The position numbers were made by a program, and so were the translations under genes. A DNA stretch of 42,236 nt from Luminiphilus sp. (GTDB lineage Bacteria; Pseudomonadota; Gammaproteobacteria; Pseudomonadales; Halieaceae), in the NCBI GenBank assembly GCA_029253085.1, contig JAQXAF010000061.1, forward strand, positions 1 to 42,236, written 5' to 3'. Shown here piece by piece: positions 3,319-24,381 of this stretch; position 1 is the first letter of the stretch, and each line of letters begins with the position of its first letter. Under the pieces are notes generated by a model. The model was not told the origin of the DNA. It searched no databases and saw only the letters and a program-made list of their open reading frames with translations.

Positions 3319-4854
3319 TCACTTGTTTTCGTTTCGATATGCGTCCATCAAGTGGCGCTTGTAAAGCTTACCGTTATCCATTCGTGGAAGCTGTTCCATG
3401 AAATCTAAATTTCTAGGGATTTTTATATGTGACAACCGCTCTTTTAACCACTCCAGAAGCTCAATAGCCGTTTCATCGGTAGCATCACCCCAATTGGCGG
3501 GCTGCACAACTGCCTGGACCGCCTCACCAAATTCGTCACAAGCAACGCCAAAAACAGCCACATCGGCCACCTTGGCATGATTGATGAGCAGATTTTCAAT
3601 CTCCGCAGGGTAAATATTGACGCCACCCGATATGATCGTGAAATTTTTGCGGTCGGTGAGATACAAATAGCCCTCTTCATCGAGGTACCCCATGTCACCC
3701 ACAGAGGTCCAACCATCTTTGTTGTATGCCTCCGCAGTCTTCCCCGGCTCATTGTGGTATTCAAATTTATTGTCAATATCGGAAAACCAGATCCCTCCGA
3801 CCTCCCCTGCTGGCAGCTCATTGCCCTCCTCGTCCAACACGTGAGGAACGCCGAACAGCGGGCGACCGACCGAGCCTTTATGGTTTAGCCAATCATTGGA
3901 GTCAATCAAGGTGAAACCCGCGCCTTCACTCGATGAATAGTATTCAAGGATCACAGGCCCCCACCAATCAATCATTTGCTCCTTTACATCAATCGGGCAT
4001 GGCGCTGCCGCGTGTATAGCCATTTGCATCGAGCTGGTATCGAACTGGGTCCGCTGCGCCTCTGGTAGCTTAAGCATTCGAACGAACATAATCGGCACCC
4101 ACTGGCTGTGGGTGATGCGATGTTCTTGTATCAATTCCAAAGCACGAAGCGCGTTAAATTTTTCCATAATGATGGAGGTGCCACCCGTATCCAGAACAAC
4201 CAGGTTGTAGTGCAAAGGCGCCGCATGATAAAGCGGCGCCGGAGACAAATACGTTGTTTCTGGGCCAAACCCAAAGGCTGCCCCCAAAGACAGTGTTAAG
4301 GGCAACGGCTCATCAAAAACCTCGGTGTAAGGCTTGCTGTAAACCCCTTTGGGTTTGCCGGTGGTTCCCGATGAATACAGCATCGTTGTCCCCATGGCTT
4401 GGTCATCAATGGTCGAGCTTGGCAGCGTATCAACGGTCTCCTCCCAGGAGAGAAACCCGTCTTCGATGCCGCCGATCATATAAAAGTGCTCAAGATCCCC
4501 AGCGTTTCCCACCATGTGCACCGCGACAGAAGCCAAAGCATGCGATGCAACAAAAAGTTTAGCCCCACAGTTTTCTAAAATATAAGCCGTTTCATCTTCC
4601 TTTAAATGCGTGCTGATTGGCGTGAAAATAACCCCAGATCGCATAGCACCCGTCGTAATTTCAAGAAATTGTCGACAGTTTTCCACCATAATGGCGACGT
4701 GATCACCGGGCTTAAGCCCGCAGAGGCGAAACAGGTGGGCAACCTGATTACTTCTGGCCTCTAGCTCTCCGTAAGTGACCATCTCACCAGAGTTCGCCAT
4801 GATGAAGGCGGGTTTATGTGGTGTTTCAGCAGCAGTAATTGATATATGGGGCAT
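3319..4854 (-). CDS. AMP-dependent acyl-CoA synthetase / fatty-acid-CoA ligase
   Basis: A 511-residue class I adenylate-forming ligase of normal length that makes acyl-CoA from a carboxylic acid, ATP and CoA. The phosphate-binding loop [11 protein letters not shown] lies at residues 160-170, the YYSSSEG adenine motif near 315, [19 protein letters not shown] (ribose binding and hinge) near 405-425, the [13 protein letters not shown] motif after it, and the catalytic lysine in DNGKLYKR near the C-terminus. The N-terminus is short and direct, without signal peptide. The family matches medium or long-chain fatty-acid-CoA ligases, but related enzymes act on aromatic or steroid acids, so the substrate is not settled. 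The start ATG is at 4854, divergent from the D-glutamate/5-oxoproline operon. A TATAGT/TATACA element around 4886-4891 could serve both directions. Confidence 0.88.
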
Positions 4855-4913
4855 CAGGGCTCTCGCAATGGTATGTTTCGCTTACTATACAAGAGCGCGC
4901 AGCGAGTTAAAGC

Positions 4914-4922
4914 AAAGGAGGT
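4914..4922 (+). promoter_or_regulatory. Ribosome binding site that sets the DUF1445 gene start
   Basis: AAAGGAGGT, a near-perfect anti-16S match, ends 4 bases before GTG at 4927. The frame is open further upstream to 4846, but that extension would overlap the divergent gene and lengthen the protein beyond its family. The site therefore argues for the GTG start. Confidence 0.85.
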
Positions 4923-4926
4923 AAAA

Positions 4927-5730
4927 GTGACGGTTGGTGACCCTCTCAAGCCCATGGCGCCCGAGCAGCTGCGCCTTGCTGCACGTCAGGGAAAATTCAA
5001 TGAACCCACGAGCGGTATGGCCCCGGGGTTCGTCCAATGTAATTTGGTGATCGTACCCCAGTATTATGCCGGAGATTTCGCGGAGTTTTGTCGACGCAAT
5101 CCAAAGCCCTGCCCACTACTGGCTGTAAGCCCAAAGCCTGGTGACTTTAGCTTGCCCGAGCTTGGGCTTGATGTTGATGTGCGCACTGACCTACCCCGCT
5201 ACCGGCGCTGGGAAGATGGCGCGTTAGTCGATGAACCGACTCACCTGCTCGATCACTGGACTCCTGACCATGTGGCCTTTGCCTTGGGCTGCTCGTTTTC
5301 TTTCGAAGAAGCACTTCTTGCTGGCGGGCTTGAAATTCGAAATATTTCTGAGGGCGTCAACGTCCCGATGTTCCGCACGAATCAGCCGTGTATATCCGCA
5401 GGTCCCTTTGCAGGCAACTTGGTGGTTAGCATGCGACCAATGAAGCCTAAAGACGCCATTAGGGCCATCCAAATTTGCACCCGATTCCCCGCAGTTCACG
5501 GCGCCCCTGTGCACTTTGGCGACCCCTCTCAAATCGGGATAGCAAACCTTCAGCAACCCGATTTTGGCGACGCCGTATCAATAAACGAAAACGAAGTCCC
5601 CGTATTTTGGGCCTGCGGAGTCACGCCACAGGTCGCACTCGAAAATGCCAAAATACCCTTGGCTTTTACCCACGCTCCCGGTTACATGTTGGTATCCGAT
5701 AAACCCAATATAGGACTTGCCGTACTGTGA
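4927..5730 (+). CDS. DUF1445 putative hydro-lyase, D-glutamate cyclase family (YcsI-like)
   Basis: 267 residues from the GTG start chosen by the strong AGGAGG at 4916-4921, matching the usual 260-270 length. It resembles Bacillus Ycs[21 protein letters not shown] at the N-terminus, the [16 protein letters not shown] segment, [13 protein letters not shown] in the middle and [10 protein letters not shown] at the C-terminus. The family is annotated as putative hydro-lyase within the D-glutamate cyclase family, because the same domain is the N-terminal part of animal DGLUCY. It is the first gene of a seven-gene operon, and its stop overlaps the pxpA start by four bases (GTGA). Inferred role: cyclising D-glutamate to 5-oxo-D-proline, or acting on 5-oxoproline, together with the DUF4392 protein encoded downstream. 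No biochemical proof can be drawn from sequence alone. Confidence 0.85.
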
Positions 5731-6521
5731 AAGCCGTAAAAAGCGTGGTCAGGCGCACGCGAAAAAAACAACCCAGCCCATTAAATATCAAGCTTAACTG
5801 TGATTTGGGTGAAGGTTTTGGTGCCTACACAATGGGCTGCGATGAGGACATCATGCCGCTTATTGACTGTGCGAACGTGGCCTGCGGCTTTCATGGCGGT
5901 GATCCCTCTATCATCCGTCAAACAGTCTTACTCGCCAAACGCCACAAGGTCGAAATGGGTGCCCATGTGGCTTATCCCGATTTACAGGGATTCGGACGCC
6001 GCTCAATGACTCTCCGAGGTCAGGAGCTTATCGACTGCATTCAGTATCAGATATCCGCACTCGATGGGATGGCGCGCACCCATGGTGCCCGGGTTACCTA
6101 TGTCAAACCACACGGCGCGCTTTACAACGATATGAATGCCGACGAGTCACTTGAAAGAACCGTCATGCAAGCGGTTGCATCGTGGTACCGCCCCCTTGAA
6201 CTGGTCCGACTGGCCACGCCTCGAGATAAAAAATCGGTTGAGATCGCCTTTGAGTACGGTCTGAGCCTGCGTTTTGAAGCCTTTGCGGACCGAGGCTACA
6301 CGCGTGCAGGCCACTTGGTGCCGCGAGATAAGCCCGGCGCGATTTTGGATGTCGACGCCGCAGTTGCTCAGGCGAAAGCCATCGCCTCAGGGACACTGCG
6401 CAGCGTTAAGGGACACAAACTCAATATTGTCCCAGACACTCTATGTGTTCACGGCGATACCCCGGCAGCGCTTGAGATGCTCAAAGCGATTCGCTTAGCA
6501 CTACAACCACCCGCAGACTAA
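5727..6521 (+). CDS. pxpA: 5-oxoprolinase subunit PxpA (LamB/YcsF family)
   Basis: 264 residues, matching E. coli PxpA along its length. Seen: NCDLGEGFG at the start of the conserved part, [11 protein letters not shown] near residue 50, the [17 protein letters not shown] segment, [26 protein letters not shown] and the closing CVHGDTP. These are the conserved Asp/His/Glu positions of the YcsF fold. With PxpB and PxpC it forms the ATP-dependent prokaryotic 5-oxoprolinase, which opens 5-oxoproline (pyroglutamate) to glutamate in the cytoplasm. The GTG start overlaps the previous stop (GTGA), and the first 20 residues form a basic leader ([13 protein letters not shown]) longer than in E. coli. 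pxpB follows after three bases. Confidence 0.94.
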
Positions 6522-6524
6522 GCT

Positions 6525-7211
6525 ATGCGCTGGAGTTATGCCGGTCTAACGGGTATCCGATTGAGTTATGATGACTCACCGAGCCCTGCTGTCACCGCAA
6601 GCCTCCTTAGGTTGCGAGACCGGCTGCACACAAAATACCCGAAGGGACTGACCGACTGTGTACTCGGCTATCGAACCCTCACGCTGTTTTTTGATCCTGC
6701 AGCGCTCTCTCGAGAGACTTTGCTAGCCGCCATTGAGGCGTTAGACGACGATCTAGACGCGATGTCCGACTTCCGCCAAGACTCAGGTCAGGCCGTCGAG
6801 TTGCCTGTGTGGTACGCGGAAGAATCAGGTCAAGATTTACCCGCCGTTGCCGAGCGCAGCGGGCTTTCGGTGGATGCGGTGATTGCGCTGCATTCCAGCA
6901 TTTCTTATACCGCCTATGCCACCGGTTTTGCGCCGGGTTTTTGTTACCTAGGCGAAGTCTCTGAGCAGTTGGAAATGCCCCGTTTACGAACGCCTCGGCG
7001 GGCAGTGCCGCCGGGAAGCGTCGCCATCGCAGATCGGCAAACAGCGGTTTATCCGTCACTTTCCCCCGGGGGATGGCATTTATTAGGACGCTGCCCCCTC
7101 TCGCTCTTCGATTTAGAGAAATCACCGCCTGGCTTGATCACTGTGGGTGATCAGGTGTCATTTAGGCCCATTTCTCGAGATGAGTTTCTCTCGCTGGGTG
7201 GGACGTTGTGA
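6525..7211 (+). CDS. pxpB: 5-oxoprolinase subunit PxpB (KipI family)
   Basis: 228 residues of the KipI/allophanate hydrolase subunit 1 family. Typical segments: YRTLTLFFDP near residue 50, the ELPVWY beta strand, SGLSVDAVIALHSSISYTAY, the glycine-aromatic GFAPGFCYLGEV, RLRTPRRAVPPGSVAIADRQ and YPSLSPGGWHLLGRCP. Together these are diagnostic for the family. It forms a complex with PxpC in the ATP-dependent opening of 5-oxoproline. In Bacillus the same protein is known as the KinA inhibitor KipI, but the adjacent pxpA and pxpC point to 5-oxoprolinase here. The ATG lies three bases after the pxpA stop, and its own stop overlaps the pxpC start (GTGA at 7208), which indicates translational coupling. 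Confidence 0.94.
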   Translation: MRWSYAGLTGIRLSYDDSPSPAVTASLLRLRDRLHTKYPKGLTDCVLGYRTLTLFFDPAALSRETLLAAIEALDDDLDAMSDFRQDSGQAVELPVWYAEESGQDLPAVAERSGLSVDAVIALHSSISYTAYATGFAPGFCYLGEVSEQLEMPRLRTPRRAVPPGSVAIADRQTAVYPSLSPGGWHLLGRCPLSLFDLEKSPPGLITVGDQVSFRPISRDEFLSLGGTL

Positions 7212-8188
7212 CTGGGCTTCGCGTAGTCAAAACAGGCTTGCTAGCCACGGTGCAAGACCTCGGTCGTATTGGCTACCTGGGGCATGGGGTCACTACAGGT
7301 GGCGCGCTAGACGCATTTTCGCTTCGCTGTGCAAATCGGCTGCTTGGCAACGCTGATAATCTCGCGGGTATCGAAATAGCACTGACCGGGCTGACGCTCA
7401 TGGCGACCTGCAATCTTCAGCTGGCCTTGTGTGGTGCCCCCGCTACGCTCCTTATCAACGGTGAACAACAATTCATGGATCAAGCGCTATACGTGCCGTC
7501 TGGATCAACCATTACTATTGGTAGAACTTTGACCAGCACCTACAGCTATCTAGCGGTTAAAGGCGGAATATCAACGCCACCGGTTCTTGGGAGCCGTAGC
7601 ACCGTTGTTCGAGAGGGTATAGGCGGACTCGATGGGCAAGCCCTAAAAGCGGGAGACTTATTGCCGGTCGCAGATCTGATCGATCCGACAACTGGCTCAG
7701 CCCCGAAGCATCTCTGGCGGCGTCAGCTGCACGGTAAAACAGACCCTCAAAATGGTATTCTGCGCCTGAGATTTGTGCCGGGATTACACTACGACGATGT
7801 TACCCAAAACTGCAGAGACACTCTGTGTGCTCAAAGCTTTACGATTTCAGGTGCAGCGAATCGTATGGCCGTCCCTCTGAATGGCAACCCGATCGACACT
7901 GGGCTGACAAAACTTTGGTCAGAAGCCACCTGCTTAGGCTCGATTCAAATACCTCCCGATGGCCAACCCTTAGTGCTTCTAAATGATCGCCAAACCATGG
8001 GGGGCTACCCGCAGCTAGGGGTGATCATTTCCCTCGACCGTGTGCGACTGGGGCAAGCAAGAGCGGGACAGCAGGTCCAGCTCGAAGCAATGACTCTGGC
8101 CGCGGCGGAGCAAGTCGTTTGGTTACATGAACACTACGAGGAAACGCACCTTAAGGCCCTTGATCGCCTTGGAGGCACCGCACCTTGA
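7208..8188 (+). CDS. pxpC: 5-oxoprolinase subunit PxpC (KipA / biotin-dependent carboxyltransferase family)
   Basis: 326 residues of the KipA/allophanate hydrolase subunit 2 family. Diagnostic segments: TGLLATVQDLGRIGYLGHGV followed by GGALDAFSLRCANRLLGN, YSYLAVKGGISTPPVLGSRST, the C-terminal SEATCLGSIQIPPDGQPLVL, and NDRQTMGGYPQLGVI. It is the partner of PxpB; the BC pair carries the ATP-dependent step and PxpA completes ring opening of 5-oxoproline to glutamate. The GTG start overlaps the pxpB stop. Its TGA overlaps the TTG start of the DUF4392 gene, whose GGAGG ribosome site (8171-8175) lies inside pxpC. Confidence 0.94.
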   Translation: MTGLRVVKTGLLATVQDLGRIGYLGHGVTTGGALDAFSLRCANRLLGNADNLAGIEIALTGLTLMATCNLQLALCGAPATLLINGEQQFMDQALYVPSGSTITIGRTLTSTYSYLAVKGGISTPPVLGSRSTVVREGIGGLDGQALKAGDLLPVADLIDPTTGSAPKHLWRRQLHGKTDPQNGILRLRFVPGLHYDDVTQNCRDTLCAQSFTISGAANRMAVPLNGNPIDTGLTKLWSEATCLGSIQIPPDGQPLVLLNDRQTMGGYPQLGVIISLDRVRLGQARAGQQVQLEAMTLAAAEQVVWLHEHYEETHLKALDRLGGTAP

Positions 8189-9033
8189 CCTCGTTAGTGG
8201 ACATTAGCCGGTCGATAGAAAGGGCCCTAGTTGCGAGGAACCCGAGGGGAATGCGGTGTGTACAAGAATCGCTGCCATCTGGCTATCTTTTGCGTGCTGC
8301 ACAACGGGTTGTCGCAGCTGAAGGCAATGTCATTATTTGCACTGGCTTCCCGGTAGCGGGCACCTTTGAAACCGATGGGCCTCCCGGAGCGTTTGCGCTC
8401 TATCATTTTATAGAAAGTCTAGGGAGCAAGCCCTGGCTACTCACCGGGGACGCGATCATCCGTGCTCTTGGGGAATCTATTCGAACTTGGCCACTGAAAA
8501 GCTTTGACTTCGAGGCTGCTCATGCGGAGGCACAGGGGCTACTGCTTGATCTGGCGCCTTCACTCATTATTATGATTGAAAGACCGGGTGCCGCAGCAGA
8601 TGGACGCTTCTACAATATCGCCGGAAAAGATATCACCGCGCATTGTCGACCCGTAGAACCACTTTTAGAACTCGCAACCTGCCCCGTTATTGCCATAGGA
8701 GATGGCGGCAATGAAGCGGGCATGGGGCGCGCGGGTCAGATACTTGACACCCTCGATATAAAGCCCGCAAGCGTTGGTTGCGATGAGCTCATTGTTGCTG
8801 ATGTTTCCAATTGGGGGGCCTATGGATTAATCGCCTTGGCCGAGGCAATTTGCGAGCGCCCTGTTCTCGATTGGCTCGATAGCGATGCGCTTTTGCAGCG
8901 CTGTGTCGATCTAGGCGCCGTTGACGGCGTCAGCCATGAGCCGACCAATACCGAAGATGGCTTTAAAGCAGCAGTGGGTGAAGCGCTAATCGAAGAAATC
9001 AGGCAACTAATCAGCAGGGGTAAAGAAACATGA
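8185..9033 (+). CDS. DUF4392 protein, D-glutamate cyclase C-terminal-like (GLUCM-like)
   Basis: 282 residues forming a single DUF4392 domain, the domain found at the C-terminus of animal mitochondrial D-glutamate cyclase (DGLUCY). Seen: CTGFPVAGTFETDGPPGA near residues 52-70, an LDLAPSLIIMIERPG strand near 130, the signature GDGGNEAGMG at 172-181, and CDELIVADVSNWGAYGL after it. In animals this enzyme turns D-glutamate into 5-oxo-D-proline. Here the domain is separate from DUF1445, which is encoded four genes earlier, with pxpABC between them. The start is TTG at 8185 with GGAGG nine bases upstream, overlapping the pxpC stop. Its TGA overlaps the ATG of the aminotransferase gene. Inferred role: D-glutamate cyclisation feeding or balancing 5-oxoproline. 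Confidence 0.87.
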   Translation: MTSLVDISRSIERALVARNPRGMRCVQESLPSGYLLRAAQRVVAAEGNVIICTGFPVAGTFETDGPPGAFALYHFIESLGSKPWLLTGDAIIRALGESIRTWPLKSFDFEAAHAEAQGLLLDLAPSLIIMIERPGAAADGRFYNIAGKDITAHCRPVEPLLELATCPVIAIGDGGNEAGMGRAGQILDTLDIKPASVGCDELIVADVSNWGAYGLIALAEAICERPVLDWLDSDALLQRCVDLGAVDGVSHEPTNTEDGFKAAVGEALIEEIRQLISRGKET

Positions 9034-9884
9034 CGATCGCATACCTAAACGGTAAATTTGTGCCTCTAGAGGATGCGCGTATTTCACCGATGGATCGTGG
9101 CTTCCTTTTTGGTGACGGCATTTACGAAGTCATACCCTCTTATAACGGACAGCTCGTGGGCTTTCAGCGACATATGCAGCGGTTTGACCAAGGTCTTGCT
9201 GCGATTCACCTTGAAAATCCCATGTCAGTCGAGGAATGGCAATCGCTCTTCCGTGATATAACCGCGCAAAACCAAGGTGAATATCAGGGAGTGTATTTGC
9301 AGGTGACCCGGGGCCCTTCTGCGGTGCGCAACCATCGGTTTCCTGCTGAATGCCAACCCACAGTGTTTGCCTATACCTTCACCGTAAACGCGCCCTGTGA
9401 CGGCAATCCCGACACAGCCACTTGCTACCGAGTCGCCACCGCTAAGGACCGCCGTTGGAAGCGCTGCGATATTAAATCTGTTGCGCTCCTTGGCAATGTG
9501 CTGCATATGATGGAGGGGGTTGACGCTGGCGCAGATGAGATTATTTTATTCAACGAACGAGAAGAGCTCACAGAGGCTGCTGCCTGTAATGTGTTCATTG
9601 TTAAAAATAAATCGGTAATCACCCCGCCCTTGGATATCGAAAAATTACCGGGAGTTACGCGCAACATGCTGATCGATATTTTGCGCAAGAACGATTGGCA
9701 GATGGAAGAACGCGCGATTACGCGCGATGAGGTTATGGCCGCAGACGAAGTTTGGCTCACCAGCTCGACCAAAGAAATTGCGCCTGTGGTCGCCATCGAC
9801 GGCCACAGCGTGACTGATGGCAAACCCGGGCCGGTGTGGGCAGCAGCGCAATCGCTGTTTGCATCCCATCGTTTCAGCGCTTGA
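9030..9884 (+). CDS. dat: D-amino-acid aminotransferase (D-alanine transaminase, PLP fold type IV)
   Basis: 284 residues of the class IV aminotransferase family, closest in character to bacterial D-amino-acid transaminase rather than branched-chain transaminase or PabC. The PLP lysine is Lys149 in CDIKSVALLGNV, which is the D-amino-acid transaminase form of that motif. RNHRFP after VTRGPSAV matches the Arg-x-His pair that binds the substrate carboxylate in the Bacillus enzyme. ELTEAAACNVFIV, PGVTRNMLIDI and the C-terminal TSSTKEIAPVVAIDGHSV with GKPGPV complete the pattern. It moves the amino group between D-alanine/pyruvate and D-glutamate/2-oxoglutarate. The ATG overlaps the DUF4392 stop (ATGA), with AGGGG upstream. 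alr follows after eight bases, so both D-alanine enzymes are co-transcribed with the D-glutamate genes. Confidence 0.9.
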   Translation: MTIAYLNGKFVPLEDARISPMDRGFLFGDGIYEVIPSYNGQLVGFQRHMQRFDQGLAAIHLENPMSVEEWQSLFRDITAQNQGEYQGVYLQVTRGPSAVRNHRFPAECQPTVFAYTFTVNAPCDGNPDTATCYRVATAKDRRWKRCDIKSVALLGNVLHMMEGVDAGADEIILFNEREELTEAAACNVFIVKNKSVITPPLDIEKLPGVTRNMLIDILRKNDWQMEERAITRDEVMAADEVWLTSSTKEIAPVVAIDGHSVTDGKPGPVWAAAQSLFASHRFSA

Positions 9885-9892
9885 GATAAATC

Positions 9893-10963
9893 GTGCCAAG
9901 ACCTACTACGCTATCTGTTGATCTCGATGCCCTCTTGAGCAACGCTGCCACGACGCGCAGCCTCGCGGGGAACCGTAAAATTCTGGCCTCGGTCAAAGCC
10001 AATGCTTATGGGCACGGCCTCTCCCGTTGCAGTAAGGCCCTGAGTCAAAATGTCGATGGCTTCGCAGTCGCGTTTTGTGAAGAGGCCGTCGTACTCCGTC
10101 AGCAGGGCATTTCCTTACCACTATTGCTGCTGGAAGGCCCATTCGATCGCGACGATGTTGATGCCATCAATGAACACGACCTGATGGTAGCGATACACGA
10201 CCACCATCAAATCGACTTACTCGAGAAAGCCAGCTACCGGTTTACCTCTCCAGTGTGGATCAAAATTGACACTGGAATGCATCGATTGGGCTTTTCTCCA
10301 GCAGAGGCGTCTACGGTCGATCAGCGCCTGCGCCAACTGGGGGCACATTCGACGATTCTCATGACTCACTATGCCGAGGCGGAACATCCTTCATCAGCGT
10401 TGACCCTAGAACAACAACGAGTCTGGCAAGCATCAACAAGCTCAATGCCACCAACCCGCAGCGCGGCTAATTCCGCGGCCATCATGAATGCCTTGGCAAC
10501 TGCCACCGATTGGGTACGCCCGGGCATTATGCTCTACGGGGCAGCGCACACCGACCCCCTCAAAGGCCTTCCCCTTGAACCGGTTATGTCTTTAACGTCA
10601 GAAGTCATGGCACTGCGTAAAATTTTGGCGGGTGACACGGTCGGGTACGGAGGAAGATGGCGGGCACCGCGGGATAGCCTGATCGCAACAATTCCTGTGG
10701 GCTATGGGGACGGTTACCCAAGAGGCGCCGAAGACGGAACACCCGTGTGGCTCCAGAGCCAACGGTTCCCACTGGCCGGTAGGGTTTCGATGGATATGAT
10801 TACCGTCGACGTGACTGACTTTCAAGCCTGCCAAATTGGCACGCCGGTTGAGCTCTGGGGCAAACATTTATCGGTCAATGAAGTTGCTAAGCATGCGGGT
10901 ACGATTGGCTATGAACTTCTCACGCGGCTGACGGGCAGAGTACCTGTCATTTACCACCCCTAA
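9893..10963 (+). CDS. alr: Alanine racemase
   Basis: 356 residues, normal length for the PLP-dependent alanine racemase that interconverts L- and D-alanine. The PLP lysine is Lys35 in VKANAYGHG and the second catalytic base is Tyr252 in VGYGGRW. Conserved IKIDTGMHRLGF, WVRPGIMLYG, PVGYGDGYPRG, GRVSMDMITVDVT and the closing YELLTRLTGRVPVIY are all present, so the enzyme looks intact. The start is a GTG at 9893. The gene lies eight bases after the aminotransferase stop and closes the operon. It could be the housekeeping enzyme for peptidoglycan D-alanine or a catabolic one; the setting with dat and the D-glutamate genes favours a pathway role. ppx/gppA starts 86 bases later. Confidence 0.94.
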   Translation: MPRPTTLSVDLDALLSNAATTRSLAGNRKILASVKANAYGHGLSRCSKALSQNVDGFAVAFCEEAVVLRQQGISLPLLLLEGPFDRDDVDAINEHDLMVAIHDHHQIDLLEKASYRFTSPVWIKIDTGMHRLGFSPAEASTVDQRLRQLGAHSTILMTHYAEAEHPSSALTLEQQRVWQASTSSMPPTRSAANSAAIMNALATATDWVRPGIMLYGAAHTDPLKGLPLEPVMSLTSEVMALRKILAGDTVGYGGRWRAPRDSLIATIPVGYGDGYPRGAEDGTPVWLQSQRFPLAGRVSMDMITVDVTDFQACQIGTPVELWGKHLSVNEVAKHAGTIGYELLTRLTGRVPVIYHP

Positions 10964-17293: not shown

Positions 17294-19168
17294 TCAGCGC
17301 GTGATAATTTCTGCATTGTCACGCAGTGCAGTTCGGTACTCGAGCATGGATAGCTGACCCTGAAGCTGAGTGAGCTGAGCGAGCATCACATCTTTTTCAC
17401 CAAGCGAGAGATTCTCTAGCTGACCGGCCTCCACGCCTGCCAACTCGACGATCGCCAAATCACCATTGACCAGCTGGGTACTCTCGAGTGAGGCATCACC
17501 GCCGTGTTGCATCGCAAATGCGACTGTGACGACTTCAGCAGGCAGCAGACTGCCAATTCTTCGCGCGCCCAACTCCACACGCCACTCATACCCCTCAACT
17601 GTGGCAATCTCTTCTAACCGTTCGCCTTCATTCCGGCGTGAACGCAGCGATTCCAATAGCGCTAGCTTGGCTGCCATCTCGGCGCTTTCCTCTAAATCGG
17701 CGCGTATCGTTTGTGCCACTTGGGAAAACGACAAAATTTCGGCAGCCCGCTTTTCTGCGACTCGAACCACAACGAATCGATTTCCCGAGAGTTCTACGAT
17801 GGCACTATTGTTTCCCTCCACATACACGTCATCAGAGAATAGTGCCTCTCGGACAGCGCGCTCTTCAAAAACACCCCCACCGTCGGTTAATGATACTGGC
17901 AACGATTGCTTGACCGAGAGCGACAGCGCATCTCCCGGCTGCTGGAGATCTGCAGCATTAAAACTCAACTCGCGTAATTCATCGACCGTGACCAATAGGG
18001 TTTGATCGGCTTCAGCTTCTTGCATGGATTTTGCTAGCTCATCCTTTAGCTGGTCGTAATTGGGAGTTTCTCCCGCCACGCGCTCCTGAATGCGAATAAA
18101 ATGCGTGCCGGCATCGGTCTTTACTCCAGCAGAGACTTCACCAACGGCAAGATTACTCACCGCACTCTCCATGGGCTCAGGGAATACCGTACCGTCGGTA
18201 AAGCCAAGCTCGCCCCCTAAGGCGGCTGACCCCACGTCGTCAGACAGCTCGGCAGCAAGATCAGCAAAATTTTCATCGGCGGCTATACGGCTCGCCACGT
18301 CATCGACTCGACGGGTATAAGCTTCAATTGACTCATCGTCACCTTGAATTAGAAGAATGTGTGCTATTAGGGTTTGCTCTGCTACGGTGTATTCATCCTG
18401 CACCGCCTCGAATTGATCCTGTAACGCCACAGGGTCAACCGGCGCCAGAAAATCCTCCCTGGATATCACAATGTAATCAGCGATTACAGTCGCTTCTGAA
18501 GTCCACACACTAGGGTCTCGATCGTAAACCTGCCTTACTGAATCCGCCGAAACTTCTGCCGATGATCGGAGCGCTTCGTCAGTCACAATCAGGTACCTAA
18601 CATCACGCTCTTCGGCTGTCGCCTCCGCGGCGGCGACAAGCTCTGCATTGGTGACAAAATCGGATGCCAAAACACCCTGCTGTAACTGGCTAAGAATAAT
18701 TTGCTGCGATTGCTCTCGCCGGAACCGTTCTGGGGTATACCCCGCGTTGGCTAGCACCACTTTGTATTGATCCGCGCTGAAGGCCCCATCAACCTTAAAG
18801 ACGTCTATAGAACTGACAAGCTCGCCAATAGCACGACTGGAGGCAACCATGGCATTGTCTGTCGCGGCCTGCAGCAAAAGGGTTCGCTCAATCATCTCTT
18901 CCAGAGCTCGTGGCCTAATACGATCATCATCTAGCATTTCCGGGTCTATGTTGTCGCCGAAAATTTGTATGAGCTGACGCTTCTGCCCCTCAATGGCGAC
19001 TTGTAGCTCTTGGGGGGTGATCTCAGTGCCGTTGACCTCGGCAACCGACGTCCCTGAGCTGCCAAATATGACCTGCTCGAGACCGAATCCAGCAAAGGAG
19101 AGGATGATAAGGAATATAAGAATCTTGAACCCGGTATTTTGAGTACCGGCGCGAATCGACTGCATCAT
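17294..19168 (-). CDS. ppiD: Periplasmic folding chaperone/peptidyl-prolyl isomerase PpiD (SurA_N family)
   Basis: 624 residues, the length of E. coli PpiD. The N-terminus has one membrane segment (about residues 14-34, FKILIFLIILSFAGFGL), so the body is periplasmic. Then come VAEVNGTEITPQELQ (SurA_N-like chaperone start), a long helical chaperone part, and a parvulin-type domain at about 265-365 recognisable by AHILLI, FADLAAELSDD, GGELGFTDGT and THFIRIQER. PpiD associates with the SecYEG translocon and helps newly exported proteins. In PpiD the isomerase active site is often weak. Its place downstream of hupB matches the conserved clp-lon-hupB-ppiD order, with a terminator between hupB and ppiD. 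Confidence 0.93.
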   Translation of the reverse strand: MMQSIRAGTQNTGFKILIFLIILSFAGFGLEQVIFGSSGTSVAEVNGTEITPQELQVAIEGQKRQLIQIFGDNIDPEMLDDDRIRPRALEEMIERTLLLQAATDNAMVASSRAIGELVSSIDVFKVDGAFSADQYKVVLANAGYTPERFRREQSQQIILSQLQQGVLASDFVTNAELVAAAEATAEERDVRYLIVTDEALRSSAEVSADSVRQVYDRDPSVWTSEATVIADYIVISREDFLAPVDPVALQDQFEAVQDEYTVAEQTLIAHILLIQGDDESIEAYTRRVDDVASRIAADENFADLAAELSDDVGSAALGGELGFTDGTVFPEPMESAVSNLAVGEVSAGVKTDAGTHFIRIQERVAGETPNYDQLKDELAKSMQEAEADQTLLVTVDELRELSFNAADLQQPGDALSLSVKQSLPVSLTDGGGVFEERAVREALFSDDVYVEGNNSAIVELSGNRFVVVRVAEKRAAEILSFSQVAQTIRADLEESAEMAAKLALLESLRSRRNEGERLEEIATVEGYEWRVELGARRIGSLLPAEVVTVAFAMQHGGDASLESTQLVNGDLAIVELAGVEAGQLENLSLGEKDVMLAQLTQLQGQLSMLEYRTALRDNAEIITR

Positions 19169-19327
19169 TGTAAAGGGCTTCCAATTATCTAGTTTGCACG
19201 CAAAATAAAAGAGTTAGGTGCATAGCGCGCGCGGTAGCCCCGACTGCCAAATAGCCAGGGAGCTCACCTATTAAGCGGACGAGCTGCAGACCTTGCTAAC
19301 TGCAGCTTGCCCGCGGGCCATTATACG

Positions 19328-19354
19328 AAAAAAGGCGCAATAAAGCGCCTTTTT
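19328..19354 (-). terminator. Rho-independent terminator after hupB
   Basis: GGCGC (19334-19338) pairs with GCGCC (19345-19349) over a six-base loop, extended by A and T runs on both sides. On the minus strand the stem is followed by TTTTTT, so it ends hupB transcripts. The run on the other side would also let it work rightward. Confidence 0.8.
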
Positions 19355-19418
19355 CATCGTGCGAGCACAGTGCTCCGTTACCTCATCCCGCCAAGGGAAG
19401 TCAGTACGGAATAGGCCT

Positions 19419-19694
19419 CTAGCTATTAACAGCGTCCTTGAGTGCCTTGCCGGCTTTAAAGCCAGGCGCGTTAGACGCCTTAATTTGGATGGTCTCGCCA
19501 CTACGTGGGTTACGCCCTTCTCGAGCAGCGCGATGCTTCACAGAAAATGTTCCAAAGCCCACCAGTGATACGGTGTCCTGCTTGGTCAGGGCGCCAGTAA
19601 TGGCATTGATCGCCGCGTCTAAAGCACGGCCCGCAGAGGCCTTTGACAGGTCGGCTTCTTCGGCAATAGCGTCTATTAATTCATTTTTATTCAC
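19419..19694 (-). CDS. hupB: DNA-binding protein HU, beta type
   Basis: 91 residues, the standard HU size. Seen: [20 protein letters not shown] (helical dimerisation part), [22 protein letters not shown] (the DNA-binding arm with the conserved RxGRNP), [20 protein letters not shown] at the C-terminus. HU is the abundant nucleoid protein that bends DNA. The start is a GTG at 19694 with GAGAGGAA upstream. A good promoter at 19759-19786 and the terminator after it mean it can be expressed as its own short transcript between lon and ppiD. Confidence 0.97.
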
Positions 19695-19758
19695 GTGAGT
19701 TCCTCTCGGCAGGTTTGATGCAGGGTTGGGCGTAAAGCCCGCTTTTCTTAAATTGAAG

Positions 19759-19786
19759 GTTATAACGATGGGATAGAAAGGGTCAA
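19759..19786 (-). promoter_or_regulatory. Sigma-70 promoter of hupB
   Basis: Minus strand TTGACC (19781-19786) and TATAAC (19759-19764) are 16 bases apart, each one base off consensus. Expected start near 19752, giving a leader of about 55-60 bases. An independent promoter for hupB after lon fits the high demand for HU. Confidence 0.65.
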
Positions 19787-19835
19787 TGAAAGTTATCCCT
19801 AATCAGCCGAAAAAAAGACCTAAAGCACAACAAAA

Positions 19836-22247
19836 TTAATGTGCCGGGGGTCTAGAGGGTTCAGCTTGGTCTGTATTGGCTGCTCCCATGACATCATCGG
19901 CTAGGTATTCCTCATCACTGATGGGATCTGGAACACGCTCCAAGGCGATCGCAAGCACTTCATCGATCCATTTGACCGGTTTTATATCCAAATTTTCGAG
20001 AATGTTGTCTGGCACTTCTTTCAAGTCCCGCTCATTCTCTTTGGGTATTACGACGATCTTAATGCCCCCTCGACGGGCTGCAAGTAACTTTTCCTTGAGA
20101 CCACCGATGGGGAGGACTTCGCCACGAAGGGTAATCTCTCCTGTCATAGCCACCTCAGACCGAACGGGAATCTGTGTAGCGACACTGACTAATGCAGTAC
20201 ACATGGCAATGCCAGCACTCGGGCCATCTTTCGGCGTGGCACCTTCAGGAACGTGAATGTGCGTGTCATTACGCTCGTGGTATACCGCGGCAACACCAAG
20301 GCTTTGTGAACGTGAACGAAAGACCGTGTTCGCTGCTTGGATTGACTCTTGCATCACATCCCCGAGAGAGCCCGTTTTAACATGACGCCCCTTACCCGCG
20401 ACAGCAGCGGCCTCAATGGTCAACAATTCACCTCCAACAGAAGTCCAAGCGAGGCCAGTTACCTGCCCGACCTTGCTCTCCTCCTCGGCAATGCCAAAAT
20501 TGTACTTCTGAACGCCTAGCAGGTCGGGCAACATAGCCGGCGTGACTTCAACTTCACCTTGTATTTCACCCGTCGCAAATTGCTTCACCATTTTACGGCA
20601 AATTTTTGCCACCTCACGTTCCAAGCCTCTCACACCCGCCTCTTTGGTGTAGTAACGGATAACGTCGAGAAGCGCCTCGGCCCCCAGCTTAATTTCCTCT
20701 TTCTTCAAGCCATTTTGCTTAATTTGCTTAGGCGCAAGATAGCGCTCGCAGATGTTCAGCTTTTCATCTTCGGTGTAACCCGGTATGCGGATAACTTCCA
20801 TTCGGTCCAAAAGAGGGCTCGGTATATTCATGGTATTAGAGGTGCAGACAAACATAACGTCTGACAAATCGTAATCCACTTCGAGATAATGATCGTTGAA
20901 GGCGTGATTTTGTTCTGGATCCAGAACTTCTAACATTGCCGAGGCGGGATCTCCTCGATGGTCGGTGCCCATTTTATCGATTTCATCCAACAGAAATAGC
21001 GGGTTTCTAACACCCGCTTTTGCCATTTTTTGTAACAACTTACCCGGCATTGATCCTATGTAGGTTCTTCGGTGCCCCCGGATTTCAGCTTCATCACGCA
21101 CCCCGCCAAGGGCCATCCGAACAAACTTTCTGTTGGTCGCTCTGGCCAAAGACTCCCCTAGCGAGGTTTTACCCACCCCCGGGGGGCCCACGAGGCAAAG
21201 GACTGGGCCTTTTATTTTGCGGACGCGCTTCTGCACCGCGAGGTACTCAAGAATACGGTCTTTCACCTCTTCGAGCCCATAATGGTCGGCGTCAAGTATT
21301 GATGCAGCGCGCTTCAGGTCGTGCTTAACCTTACTGCGCTTAGTCCAAGGTACGCTAACCATCCAATCGATGTACCCTCGCAGTACCGAGGCCTCCGCCG
21401 ACATGGGCGACATCATCTTTAACTTGTTAAGTTCTCCTAGCGCTTTATCTCGAGCTTCATCAGGCATTTTTGCATCGGATATGCGCCCCTCGAGATCATC
21501 GAGTTCGTTGGGGGCATCATCGAGTTCGCCTAACTCTTTCTGAATGGCTTTCATCTGCTCATTTAGATAATACTCTCGCTGGCTCTTCTCCATTTGCTTT
21601 TTGACCCGACCACGAATGCGTTTCTCTACCTGAAACAAGTCCATCTCGGCGTCCATCAATCCAAGCAAATGATTCACACGATCTTGCAAAGACGATATTT
21701 CTAAAATGCGCTGCTTTTCTTCGAGATCAACGCTCATGTGCGCTGCTATGGTGTCGGTTAGACGGCCTGGGTCGTCAATGCCAGAAAGTGAAGCAAGCAC
21801 TTCTGATGGAACTTTTTTGCTCAGACTGACATATTTTTCGAACTGCTCGACGACCGTACGAAGACATTCATCAATTTCATCATCAGGTAACTCGCTGTTT
21901 TCGATTTGCCGAACATGAGCGATGGTGTAGTCGCCCTCATCATTCATAGATTCGACCGCAGCCCGGTATTCACCCTCAACCAGCACCTTGATGGTGCCAT
22001 CAGGCAGTTTCAACAGCTGCAAAATGTTGGAGACGGTTCCGACCTGATAAAGATCGTCTACCGCAGGCATGTCGTCGGATGCATTCCGCTGGGCAACCAA
22101 CAGCACCTGCTTGTCATTTGTCATGGCCTGCTCGAGGGCCTCAATAGACTTCTCGCGCCCAACAAAGAGGGGTAGCACCATGTGGGGATATACCACCACA
22201 TCGCGCAGGGGAAGCAGAGGTAACTCAATAGCAACAGCGTCGTTCAT
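19836..22247 (-). CDS. lon: ATP-dependent protease La (Lon)
   Basis: 803 residues, full length. The N-terminal substrate-binding domain begins LPLLPLRDVVVYPHMVLPLF. The AAA+ module carries Walker A GPPGVGKTSLGESLA and Walker B FLLDEIDKMG. The C-terminal protease domain has the Ser nucleophile in PKDGPSAG and the partner Lys in GGLKEKLLAARRGG, so the Ser-Lys dyad is intact. Lon degrades misfolded and selected regulatory proteins in the cytoplasm. A sigma-32 type promoter directly upstream (22274-22302) suggests heat-shock induction independent of clpPX. It lies between clpX and hupB, as in Pseudomonas and E. coli. Confidence 0.97.
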   Translation of the reverse strand: MNDAVAIELPLLPLRDVVVYPHMVLPLFVGREKSIEALEQAMTNDKQVLLVAQRNASDDMPAVDDLYQVGTVSNILQLLKLPDGTIKVLVEGEYRAAVESMNDEGDYTIAHVRQIENSELPDDEIDECLRTVVEQFEKYVSLSKKVPSEVLASLSGIDDPGRLTDTIAAHMSVDLEEKQRILEISSLQDRVNHLLGLMDAEMDLFQVEKRIRGRVKKQMEKSQREYYLNEQMKAIQKELGELDDAPNELDDLEGRISDAKMPDEARDKALGELNKLKMMSPMSAEASVLRGYIDWMVSVPWTKRSKVKHDLKRAASILDADHYGLEEVKDRILEYLAVQKRVRKIKGPVLCLVGPPGVGKTSLGESLARATNRKFVRMALGGVRDEAEIRGHRRTYIGSMPGKLLQKMAKAGVRNPLFLLDEIDKMGTDHRGDPASAMLEVLDPEQNHAFNDHYLEVDYDLSDVMFVCTSNTMNIPSPLLDRMEVIRIPGYTEDEKLNICERYLAPKQIKQNGLKKEEIKLGAEALLDVIRYYTKEAGVRGLEREVAKICRKMVKQFATGEIQGEVEVTPAMLPDLLGVQKYNFGIAEEESKVGQVTGLAWTSVGGELLTIEAAAVAGKGRHVKTGSLGDVMQESIQAANTVFRSRSQSLGVAAVYHERNDTHIHVPEGATPKDGPSAGIAMCTALVSVATQIPVRSEVAMTGEITLRGEVLPIGGLKEKLLAARRGGIKIVVIPKENERDLKEVPDNILENLDIKPVKWIDEVLAIALERVPDPISDEEYLADDVMGAANTDQAEPSRPPAH

Positions 22248-22273
22248 GGAATACTCCAGTGTCTATACCACTT

Positions 22274-22302
22274 ACATGGGGATAGTACGGTGTATTCTCA
22301 AG
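22274..22302 (-). promoter_or_regulatory. Sigma-32 (RpoH) heat-shock promoter of lon
   Basis: On the minus strand CTTGAGA (22296-22302) and CCCCATGT (22274-22281) are 14 bases apart. The RpoH consensus is CTTGAAA, 11-16 bases, CCCCATnT, so only one base differs. It lies about 25 bases upstream of the lon start, between clpX and lon. Confidence 0.8.
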
Positions 22303-22354
22303 GGGTGGATGACTTTCGTTTGAAGGCGCTTAAGAAATTCGCGCCGAGGCGGTA

Positions 22355-23635
22355 TCAGTCTTCAGCTACCGCCCTGGCTGTTTCGTTGTTTTCATAGACC
22401 AACAACGGCTCAGACTCGCCTTTTATAACGCTCTCATCAACGACAATTTTAGCGACGTTCTGCTGCGAGGGTACGTTATACATCGATTCCAAAAGGACAT
22501 TCTCTAGAATAGACCGCAAACCCCTCGCACCGGTTTTACGCTCCATAGCCCGCTCGGCAACCGCACGAAGCCCATCCTCTCTGAAATCAATTTCGACACC
22601 TTCCATGTCAAACATCTTGGCGTACTGCTTGGTCAACGCGTTGCGAGGCTCAGTCAAAATTCGCACCAAGGCTTCAACATCTAACTCTTCAAGAGTCGCA
22701 ATGACCGGCAAACGACCCACAAACTCTGGTATCAGACCATACTGAACCAGATCTTCCGGCTCTAGATCAGAAATCATTTCACCGAAACGGCGCGTTTCAT
22801 CCTTGCTCTTTACTTCAGCCGTAAATCCGATCCCGCCTTTTTCAGAGCGATTGCGAATAATTTTGTCAAGTCCGGCAAAGGCGCCCCCACAAATGAACAA
22901 AATGTTACTCGTGTCGACCTGCAGGAACTCCTGCTGCGGATGCTTTCGTCCACCCTGAGGTGGCACTGAGGCCACGGTGCCTTCAATCAGCTTCAGCAAG
23001 GCTTGTTGCACGCCTTCACCCGATACATCTCGGGTAATCGAGGGATTGTCTGATTTCCGCGAAATTTTATCGATCTCGTCGATGTAGACAATACCCATCT
23101 GCGCCCGCTCTACATCGTAGTCGCATTTCTGAAGCAGCTTTTGAATGATGTTCTCGACATCTTCCCCCACATAACCGGCTTCGGTCAGTGTCGTTGCGTC
23201 GGCAACCGTAAAGGGTACGTCGAGTAGCCGCGCCAGAGTTTCTGCGAGTAGCGTCTTACCAGAGCCGGTAGGACCTACTAATAAAATATTCGACTTACTA
23301 AGCTCAACGTCATCGCCCGACCGCGTGTCCGGGGTGTAGCGCAGGCGCTTATAGTGATTGTACACGGCCACGGCAAGCACACGCTTAGCCCTTTCCTGTC
23401 CGATCACATACTGGTCGAGGATTGCATTAATTTCGTAGGGAATAGGCAATTTGTCTGAGCTTGACTCGCTCGTGGCCTCTTGAACCTCCTCGCGAATGAT
23501 GTCGTTGCAAAGATCAACGCACTCATCGCAAATGAAGACCGAAGGTCCCGCGATTAACTTCCTAACCTCATTCTGGCTCTTGCCGCAGAATGAGCAGTAA
23601 AGCAGCTTATCGCTGTCAGCACTGTCTTTTGCCAT
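22355..23635 (-). CDS. clpX: ATP-dependent Clp protease ATP-binding subunit ClpX
   Basis: 426 residues. The N-terminal zinc-binding domain has CSFCGKSQ and CDECVDLC, the four zinc cysteines. The AAA+ domain carries Walker [16 protein letters not shown] and Walker [11 protein letters not shown]. The RKHPQQEF region is part of the pore/substrate machinery, and [12 protein letters not shown] is sensor 2. The loop IGF that docks on ClpP is seen in [10 protein letters not shown]. ClpX unfolds tagged or regulatory proteins and feeds them into ClpP. It follows clpP by 84 bases, which include an inverted repeat that may affect clpX expression. A GAGG ribosome site lies before the ATG. Confidence 0.97.
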
Positions 23636-23672
23636 TACTTACTTCCTCAATCGGAGACTGAACTATCTCCTT

Positions 23673-23707
23673 TTGCAAACGATGATGGGTTTGGAGCTCG
23701 TTTGCAA
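23673..23707 (-). repeat. Perfect 10-bp inverted repeat between clpP and clpX
   Basis: TTGCAAACGA (23673-23682) and TCGTTTGCAA (23698-23707) are exact complements around a 15-base loop. No T run follows on the minus strand, so it is not a standard terminator. It could be an RNA hairpin that stabilises the clpP message or marks a processing site, or a DNA operator. Confidence 0.6.
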
Positions 23708-23719
23708 TACCCAATTACC

Positions 23720-24358
23720 TTATGAACCTTCCGCAACAACCTCGCGGTTATTCACGACATGATCCACCAAACCATAGGCTTGGCTCTGTTCCGCATCCAT
23801 AAACCGGTCACGTTCAGTATCGCGCTCGATGACTTCGAGTGACTGCCCCGTGTGTTCCGCCATCAGGCGGTTGAGGCGCTCGCGAATGATCAAAATTTCT
23901 TTTGCCTGTATATCGATATCGGTTGCCTGACCCTGCGCACCACCTGAAGGCTGGTGAATCATTGTACGGGCGTTGGGCAAAATGTAACGCTTCCCCGCAG
24001 CGCCGCCACTCAAAAGAAAAGCGCCCATGGAGGCCGCTTGGCCCAGGCACATAGTGCTAACGTCTGGCTTTACAAATTGCATGGTGTCGTAAATCGACAA
24101 CCCGGCGGTTACGGAACCCCCTGGACTATTGATGTACAGGTGGATGTCCTTGTCGGGATTCTCCGATTCTAGAAACAGCAGCTGTGCGACGATAAGATTT
24201 GCCATGTTGTCTTCAACAGGACCTACCGCAAAAATGACACGCTCTTTTAACAGCCGCGAATAAATATCAAACGAGCGTTCGCCACGGGACGTTTGCTCTA
24301 TGACCATAGGTATCAGGCCAAGGTTGCTCATATCCTGCGGGGGTCTGTCATGAATCAT
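23720..24358 (-). CDS. clpP: ATP-dependent Clp protease proteolytic subunit ClpP
   Basis: 212 residues. The catalytic triad is visible: Ser110 in GQAASMGA, His135 in MIHQPSGG, Asp184 in ERDRFMD. The N-terminal axial-loop region [20 protein letters not shown] and [16 protein letters not shown] are also typical. ClpP forms the double seven-membered ring that works with ClpX. The gene starts 23 bases after the trigger factor stop, so tig and clpP are probably co-transcribed. It is of normal length, with a short N-terminal segment that may be processed. Confidence 0.97.
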
Positions 24359-24381
24359 ATTTTACTCCGATGTATACGATG

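Follow-up and report, generated by a model that had tools for sequence, protein, structure and literature searches.

The gene cluster and its components

The stretch of DNA analysed here, referred to as the window, is the entire 42,236-nucleotide contig JAQXAF010000061.1 from a draft genome of Luminiphilus sp. (genome G000; 2.29 Mb, 79% complete). The subject of this work is a run of seven consecutive plus-strand genes in the window which places two genes predicted to encode the halves of a split D-glutamate cyclase (the DUF1445 and DUF4392 genes) together with the genes for the three subunits of a 5-oxoprolinase (PxpA, PxpB and PxpC), a D-amino-acid transaminase (Dat) and an alanine racemase (Alr). 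The features of this cluster are collected in Table 1. Adjacent genes overlap by 4 bases at 5727, 7208, 8185 and 9030, and the remaining two gaps are 3 and 8 bases long; this layout, described by a first-pass annotation of the window, was confirmed by the open reading frame listing and the sequence itself. The spacing suggests that the seven genes form a single transcription unit.

Table 1. Features of the cluster, with positions numbered along the window
Feature	Position	Strand	Support or context
DUF1445 / UPF0317 (PF07286)	4927-5730	+	PF07286 2e-64; NF003969 above cut-off; 49% identity by structure alignment to 2pif, 3db9
pxpA, 5-oxoprolinase subunit A	5727-6521	+	PF03746 1.1e-86; NF003816 above cut-off; in tree, clade accompanying the cyclase genes
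pxpB, 5-oxoprolinase subunit B	6525-7211	+	PF02682; TIGR00370 above cut-off
pxpC, 5-oxoprolinase subunit C	7208-8188	+	PF02626; TIGR00724 above cut-off, equivalog NF045499 below
DUF4392 (PF14336)	8185-9033	+	PF14336 2.2e-58; alignment to TON_0340; model Z 35.9 to 4fc5
dat, fold-IV D-amino-acid transaminase	9030-9884	+	PF01063; best-scoring solved structures; A2 alignment
alr, alanine racemase	9893-10963	+	PF01168 and PF00842; TIGR00492 336.9 bits, cut-off 168
72-base gap, presumed promoter region	4855-4926		between divergent acyl-CoA ligase gene (3319-4854, -) and DUF1445

All seven enzyme assignments made by the first-pass annotation have support at the level of Pfam domains, with Dat falling among the class-IV aminotransferases, and the DUF1445, PxpA, PxpB and Alr proteins also score above the cut-offs of their NCBIfam models (NF003969, NF003816, TIGR00370 and TIGR00492). 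Homologues of all three 5-oxoprolinase subunits (PF03746, PF02682, PF02626) thus stand together in the cluster. PxpC scores above the cut-off of the broad model TIGR00724 (240.9 against 230.2 bits) and is named from its domain and its position beside pxpA and pxpB, because it misses the cut-off of the equivalog model NF045499 (196 against 500 bits). The top-scoring solved structures for Dat are D-amino acid aminotransferases, and its carboxylate trap (Y32/R100/H102), together with K149, is invariant in 14 aligned sequences. Equating these residues with Y31/R98/H100, the carboxylate trap of the Bacillus subtilis D-amino-acid transaminase (PMC10003956), and K149 with the catalytic lysine is a motif reading.

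The seven genes are under purifying selection, the ratio of nonsynonymous to synonymous substitution rates (dN/dS) lying between 0.035 and 0.154 in comparisons with two relatives of the genus, for the second of which dS exceeds 1; the lowest values are those of DUF4392 and PxpA. Since translation appears to start at GTG codons at 4927, 5727, 7208 and 9893 and at a TTG codon for DUF4392, the gene starts count as inferred; if DUF1445 began instead at an in-frame ATG at 4846, it would run into the divergent acyl-CoA ligase gene. A consensus scan for promoters and terminators returned no surplus of sites (6 against 4.2 in shuffled sequence, and 10 against 7.1), and it called no promoter in the gap at 4855-4926. 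Elsewhere in the window, positions 17294-25707 hold a housekeeping string of genes for a peptidylprolyl isomerase (below its cut-off), lon, clpX and trigger factor.

The structural model of the DUF4392 protein (predicted local distance difference test score, pLDDT, 93.2) matches TON_0340 of Thermococcus (4fc5) with Z 35.9 and a root-mean-square deviation (rmsd) of 1.9 over 254 aligned residues, and the next matches, RecJ/DHH phosphoesterases, follow far below (Z 11.9, rmsd 3.4, 164 aligned). TON_0340 has been reported as a Mn2+-dependent phosphatase with six acidic metal ligands (PMC5132392), all of which are retained in the DUF4392 protein (E62, D64, E132, D173, E177 and D258); the six residues are present in 33 of the 33 rows of alignment A4 and in 14 of the 15 rows of alignment A1, where the exception is truncated before the last site. 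The model of the DUF1445 protein (pLDDT 88.8) matches 2pif (Z 32.4) and 3db9 (Z 30.7). Its fold also resembles that of the NrpR-like protein MJ0159 (Z 10.0, rmsd 3.8, 169 aligned, 11% identity); NrpR binds 2-oxoglutarate. No racemase-like fold occurs among the structure matches listed for either protein, an absence which excludes nothing.

The mouse homologue of both domains converts D-glutamate to 5-oxo-D-proline (PMC5339696), and that the mouse cyclase possesses the DUF1445 half is based on a remark about Atu3911 in PMC5132392. DUF1445 and DUF4392 are the likely counterparts of the N- and C-terminal halves of this animal enzyme, and the bacterial pair may accordingly be predicted to be a D-glutamate cyclase. 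The split itself has been noticed before, since a table in PMC11580864 records that gut bacteria have six homologues of the human cyclase in split form. An unusual relative lies at L266:4183-14940 (genome G719), where a 3586-residue frame beside a DUF1445 gene contains two DUF4392 domains (residues 1448-1687 and 2071-2331); 1000 residues searched at one end of this frame gave no Pfam match.

Conservation and separability of the cluster

The distribution of the cluster was mapped in a set of 140 genomes taken as the family Halieaceae (among named genomes, those nearest to the window are Luminiphilus genomes from metagenomes), in other families of the order, in named genomes and in the wider phylum; the sets of 40, 13, 28 and 80 loci partly overlap, as some named contigs repeat genomes of other sets. 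DUF4392 is present in 114 of the 140 family genomes and in 27 of the 28 genera. The intact seven-gene arrangement surrounds it in 35 of the first 40 family loci; of the other five, two lack pxpB and pxpC, two lack DUF1445 locally and one is a second, divergent DUF4392. In genomes G048 and G056 DUF1445 is absent from the cluster locus and present elsewhere in the genome. The divergent DUF4392 copy (locus L040, genome G036) is 27-28% identical, and none of the cluster genes was found in the 19.5 kb sequence that carries it. Thirteen further family loci comprise seven complete clusters, five cut by contig ends and one without pxpBC.

Beyond the family, the cluster is complete at 19 of 28 loci from other families of the order, so that the arrangement is not unique to this strain. 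A scan of named genomes returned at least 571 relatives, and among the best 80 of these, which were analysed, all seven genes occur in 38 (36 in the arrangement of the window and two with alr first), belonging to Cellvibrionales, Oceanospirillaceae or records lacking an order, while another 23 have everything except alr (two of them with dat reversed) and extend to Alteromonadales, Chromatiales and Thiotrichales. Outside the order, the sample comprised 398 genomes of the phylum besides the window's own, and nine of these have DUF4392: two of the nine loci retain DUF1445-pxp-DUF4392-dat, one of these lacking pxpA; three have DUF1445 beside DUF4392 with no pxp or dat; at one, pxpA and pxpB lie about 7 kb off; and three have no such neighbours. 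Because the arrangement recurs within the family, across the order and beyond it, a chance neighbourhood and a strain-specific island are rejected.

Family genomes that lack DUF4392 reveal which part of the cluster can stand alone. Eighteen of the 26 such genomes were read around alr, and dat-alr is present in 16 of the 18, the remaining two being cut inside alr; in 13 of the 18 the full string acyl-CoA ligase, dat, alr, ppx is found with nothing of the DUF1445/PxpABC/DUF4392 block inside it. In a tree of dat and alr (65 rows), 14 block-lacking genomes form one clade and G041 stands separately. One clade of the genus has thus lost both DUF genes, carries a different type of PxpABC elsewhere and keeps dat-alr in place; biosynthesis by Dat and Alr is therefore read as the core of the cluster, and the block is separable from it. 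Of the 26 genomes, 25 are also without DUF1445 (by elimination) and 18 have a PxpA; where the PxpA locus was read in block-lacking members of the genus (eight genomes), this PxpA is part of a pxpABC set located elsewhere and groups outside the operon type. The PxpA of G041 is of the operon type, in a genome with neither DUF1445 nor DUF4392, and it lies near a contig end, which makes the loss of the block less certain there than in the 14-genome clade.

Within the block, the presence of DUF1445 and that of DUF4392 agree in 135 of the 140 family genomes; four of the five discordant genomes have only DUF4392, on contigs that end before the position of DUF1445, and one (G008) has only DUF1445. This co-occurrence suggests that the two proteins work as one unit. 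PxpC and DUF4392 are encoded in a single reading frame in some Porticoccaceae and related contigs, as in the 621-residue fusion at locus L144 (CT_A_B at 45-309, DUF4392 at 357-614) and at five named loci, one of which is on the same contig as L144, and they are separate in other Porticoccaceae (for example locus L170). Loci apparently without DUF4392 proved to be such fusions. In trees of PxpA and PxpC, the operon types lie apart from those of Escherichia coli and of the block-lacking relatives. The operon-type PxpA clade is not pure, since three of its rows come from loci with no DUF4392 gene nearby; two of these rows are from genomes that have DUF4392 elsewhere, and one (locus L248) is from G041.

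The supply of D-glutamate

The model of the glutamate racemase MurI (TIGR00067) gives a match above its cut-off in 1 of the 140 family genomes, and no match at all in 72 of the 78 high-quality family genomes or in G000, itself only 79% complete; elsewhere the cut-off is exceeded in 212 of the 293 genomes of a sample of the order and in 8 of 14 control genomes. The sole family gene above the cut-off (locus L107, genome G138) is on a 16 kb contig, and contamination is possible. Alr is present in all 78 high-quality family genomes, with one gene above the cut-off in each; the exceptions to a single copy are G042 and a few genomes with alr in pieces. Since MurI is near absent and alr essentially single-copy, Alr and Dat are read as biosynthetic: they are probably the source of the D-alanine and D-glutamate of peptidoglycan in this family, in which Dat would replace MurI. 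The first-pass annotation had recognised D-glutamate as the metabolite common to the cluster, which is supported, and had run Alr and Dat in the direction of disposal, which conflicts with the scarcity of MurI, the single alr and the retention of dat-alr without the cyclase genes.

The same relation can be evaluated across the order, using counts that ignore relatedness among the 293 genomes. With MurI-positive genomes defined by E<1e-20 (which gives 216, against the 212 above the cut-off), MurI occurs in 9 of 40 genomes with DUF4392 as opposed to 207 of 253 without it, and a Dat-like transaminase (a match with alignment A2 at E<=1e-60, with at most eight candidates scored per genome) occurs in 66 of 77 MurI-negative and 36 of 216 MurI-positive genomes. 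All 31 MurI-negative genomes with DUF4392 have a Dat of at least 452 bits. Twelve families other than that of the window contain a dat of 380 bits or more (a threshold set once the scores had shown a break between 388 and 351 bits). When these are tabulated, MurI is missing only where dat is present in families f38, f39, f47 and f41, dat is present with MurI retained in f16, f27 and f6, and the Cochran-Mantel-Haenszel test for dat presence with MurI absence gives p 3e-6. The table omits families whose dat-like genes score lower (216-351 bits), which include 31 MurI-negative genomes, as well as the 11 MurI-negative genomes in which no dat was hit; among the latter is G404, a probable member of f47 that would break the pattern in that family. 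The presence of Dat and the absence of MurI go together in the order, and they do so inside each of the four families in which both vary.

Interpretation and comparison with known systems

The reading preferred here, which is given only a little better than an even chance, is that the cluster combines a Dat-based supply of D-glutamate with an overflow valve between D-glutamate and 5-oxoproline in one unit of supply and control. Alr would convert L-alanine to D-alanine, and Dat would transfer the amino group of D-alanine to 2-oxoglutarate, giving D-glutamate for peptidoglycan in place of MurI. Since the reaction of Dat can run either way, depending on its substrates, the D-glutamate pool would need an outlet: DUF1445 and DUF4392 would form a split, metal-dependent (probably Mn2+) cyclase that turns surplus D-glutamate into 5-oxo-D-proline, and PxpABC would reopen 5-oxoproline to glutamate at the expense of ATP. 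Both the direction of Dat and Alr and the role as a valve are proposed from the comparisons above.

Several observations weigh against this reading. Dat scores below two NCBIfam D-amino-acid-transaminase cut-offs (266.3 against 320 and 240.1 against 277.45 bits), and its label therefore rests on the motif and the best-scoring structures. MurI is present in 9 of 28 genomes with DUF4392 outside the family, seven of which also have dat at 380 bits or more, so that the cluster is not merely a substitute for MurI; conversely, 11 of the 77 MurI-negative genomes have no dat hit, and other routes to D-glutamate must therefore exist in the order. Of 12 family genomes, six contain a homologue of the Asp/Glu racemases that exceeds the PF01177 cut-off (in G000 the match is below it, E 1.4e-4), and DapF of Chlamydia trachomatis is able to racemise glutamate (PMC5885031); DapF- or MurL-type routes may operate alongside Dat. 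The chemistry raises a further difficulty, as the opening of 5-oxo-D-proline without inversion returns D-glutamate and removes nothing on balance. The exit may be an inversion carried out by the block itself, the export of 5-oxo-D-proline or a division of duties between the enantiomers, unless the product simply cycles back to D-glutamate.

The subunits of the 5-oxoprolinase add to these objections. The operon PxpA is the only PxpA in the block-bearing family genomes except G049 (the two PxpA matches of G111 are pieces), and being usually the sole one it must also serve ordinary 5-oxo-L-proline; this weakens the idea of a dedicated, D-specific PxpABC which the trees had suggested. Three genomes of genus g2 without operon-type PxpBC retain DUF1445-pxpA-DUF4392-dat-alr; they show that DUF1445, PxpA and DUF4392 can be kept together when the linked, ATP-using PxpBC is missing, and this arrangement is unexplained by a valve that ends in PxpABC. 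Loss of PxpBC from the cluster was considered and set aside: f4 has a pxpBC pair of the other type elsewhere, with no pxpA adjoining, and the g2 genomes G001 and G004 have a distant pxpB-like and a pxpC-like gene separated by about 3 kb. In G049 (locus L251) PxpB-like and PxpC-like genes are adjacent and pxpA is separate; these genes and those of L252 and L253 (g2) may encode a complex other than 5-oxoprolinase.

The exit by inversion has a specific form, in which DUF1445, DUF4392 and PxpABC together act as one ATP-driven glutamate deracemase that cyclises D-glutamate, inverts it as the lactam and reopens it as L-glutamate. This is a long shot; if true, it would supply a one-way drain that bounds the pool of Dat-made D-glutamate in bacteria lacking MurI.

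Three other explanations compete with the supply-and-valve reading. The first-pass annotation proposed the disposal or salvage of D-glutamate and D-alanine derived from peptidoglycan to L-glutamate, L-alanine and 2-oxoglutarate, and its enzyme identities and shared D-glutamate have stood, while the cluster proved conserved, contrary to the annotation's own refuting condition of an order unique to this strain. The reaction set can be written in this way, given that Dat and Alr are reversible, and dat is also present in the seven MurI-positive genomes outside the family noted above. Moreover, a LysR-type regulator gene between DUF4392 and dat in several other families also fits inducible catabolism; it was found in all seven tested inserts of about 300 residues (loci L125, L135, L178, L191, L213, L214 and L234), on the opposite strand in L135 and L213, while an eighth tested insert (220 residues, locus L228) gave no match and ten more loci with an insert fall outside the tested set. 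Disposal is nevertheless unlikely, because the scarcity of MurI and what is essentially a single copy of alr point to a biosynthetic role of Alr and Dat in this family, dat-alr survive without the cyclase genes, and L-glutamate does not follow as the end product unless the centre of 5-oxo-D-proline is inverted, since the lactam otherwise opens back to D-glutamate. No link of the cluster to peptidoglycan breakdown was seen, recycling genes not having been searched for.

The cluster might instead repair a damage product in both of its enantiomers, with PxpABC opening 5-oxo-L-proline that arises spontaneously, the DUF pair running in reverse to open 5-oxo-D-proline derived from D-glutamate, and dat-alr placed beside them because of the shared glutamate pool. 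Against this, lactam formation is favoured in water, so an opener that works without ATP would be weak. The near-universal status of the operon PxpA as the sole one in block-bearing family genomes speaks for repair, as do the spontaneous origin of 5-oxoproline from glutamate, the need of Corynebacterium glutamicum for pxpTABC in order to grow on it (PMC13274462), and the position of ycsI within the B. subtilis pxp operon (PMC10448178); the published direction in mouse, from D-glutamate to 5-oxo-D-proline (PMC5339696), speaks against it, and repair is considered improbable, if only by a shade less so than disposal. It is more doubtful still that the two DUF proteins serve the 5-oxoprolinase as accessory subunits and do not form a D-glutamate cyclase, DUF4392 being a Mn2+ phosphatase of DHH-like fold whose substrate would be a phosphorylated lactam or gamma-glutamyl phosphate. 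Such a role would agree with the phosphatase activity described for TON_0340 and its six shared acidic residues (PMC5132392), with the resemblance to DHH phosphoesterases such as RecJ (Z 11.9) and with the PxpC-DUF4392 fusion, but the animal fusion of both domains was assayed as a D-glutamate cyclase (PMC5339696), DUF1445-DUF4392 pairs without adjoining pxp genes occur at three of the nine loci outside the order, and 14 control genomes include five with PxpA, one with DUF1445 and none with DUF4392.

All of the enzymes come from known families. A full-text literature search, which covered few subscription papers (the PxpABC discovery paper not among them), yielded no description recognised as that of the cluster, with its linkage of a predicted split cyclase, PxpABC and Dat/Alr in MurI-poor bacteria. 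The supply-and-valve reading would explain how a marine bacterial family obtains D-glutamate for peptidoglycan without MurI, it would place the animal D-glutamate cyclase in a bacterial context with a set of partners, and it turns the fate of 5-oxo-D-proline into a specific, testable question. The co-occurrence of the cluster with MurI in some families and its occurrence without MurI in others provide a comparative handle.

The known systems each share a part of the cluster. The Bacillus-type D-amino acid transaminase, with its Dat-dependent synthesis of D-glutamate, has the same canonical carboxylate trap and fold IV, whereas the dat of the cluster adjoins alr, probably replaces MurI and is clustered with the cyclase/oxoprolinase block. 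TON_0340 shares the fold and the six acidic metal ligands of the cluster's DUF4392, but is archaeal, lacks a DUF1445 domain and is described as a Mn2+-dependent phosphatase. All three subunits are common to the cluster and the PxpABC systems of E. coli (pxpB-pxpC-pxpA), B. subtilis (pxpA-ycsG-ycsI-kipI-kipA) and C. glutamicum (pxpTABC), while the PxpA and PxpC of the cluster form groups separate from the E. coli proteins and from those of block-lacking relatives, and are tied to DUF4392 and dat. The B. subtilis gene ycsI is presumably a DUF1445 gene, and a PF07286 match was found in the B. subtilis genome; ycsI, pxpABC and the Mn2+ importer gene ycsG are placed in one operon in PMC10448178. 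The closest counterpart of the predicted cyclase is mammalian DGLUCY (9030617O03Rik / C14orf159), which has the same two domains, DUF1445 (Atu3911-like) and DUF4392; in the cluster these are two separate genes with three pxp genes between them, and the predicted cyclase is linked to 5-oxoprolinase, Dat and Alr.

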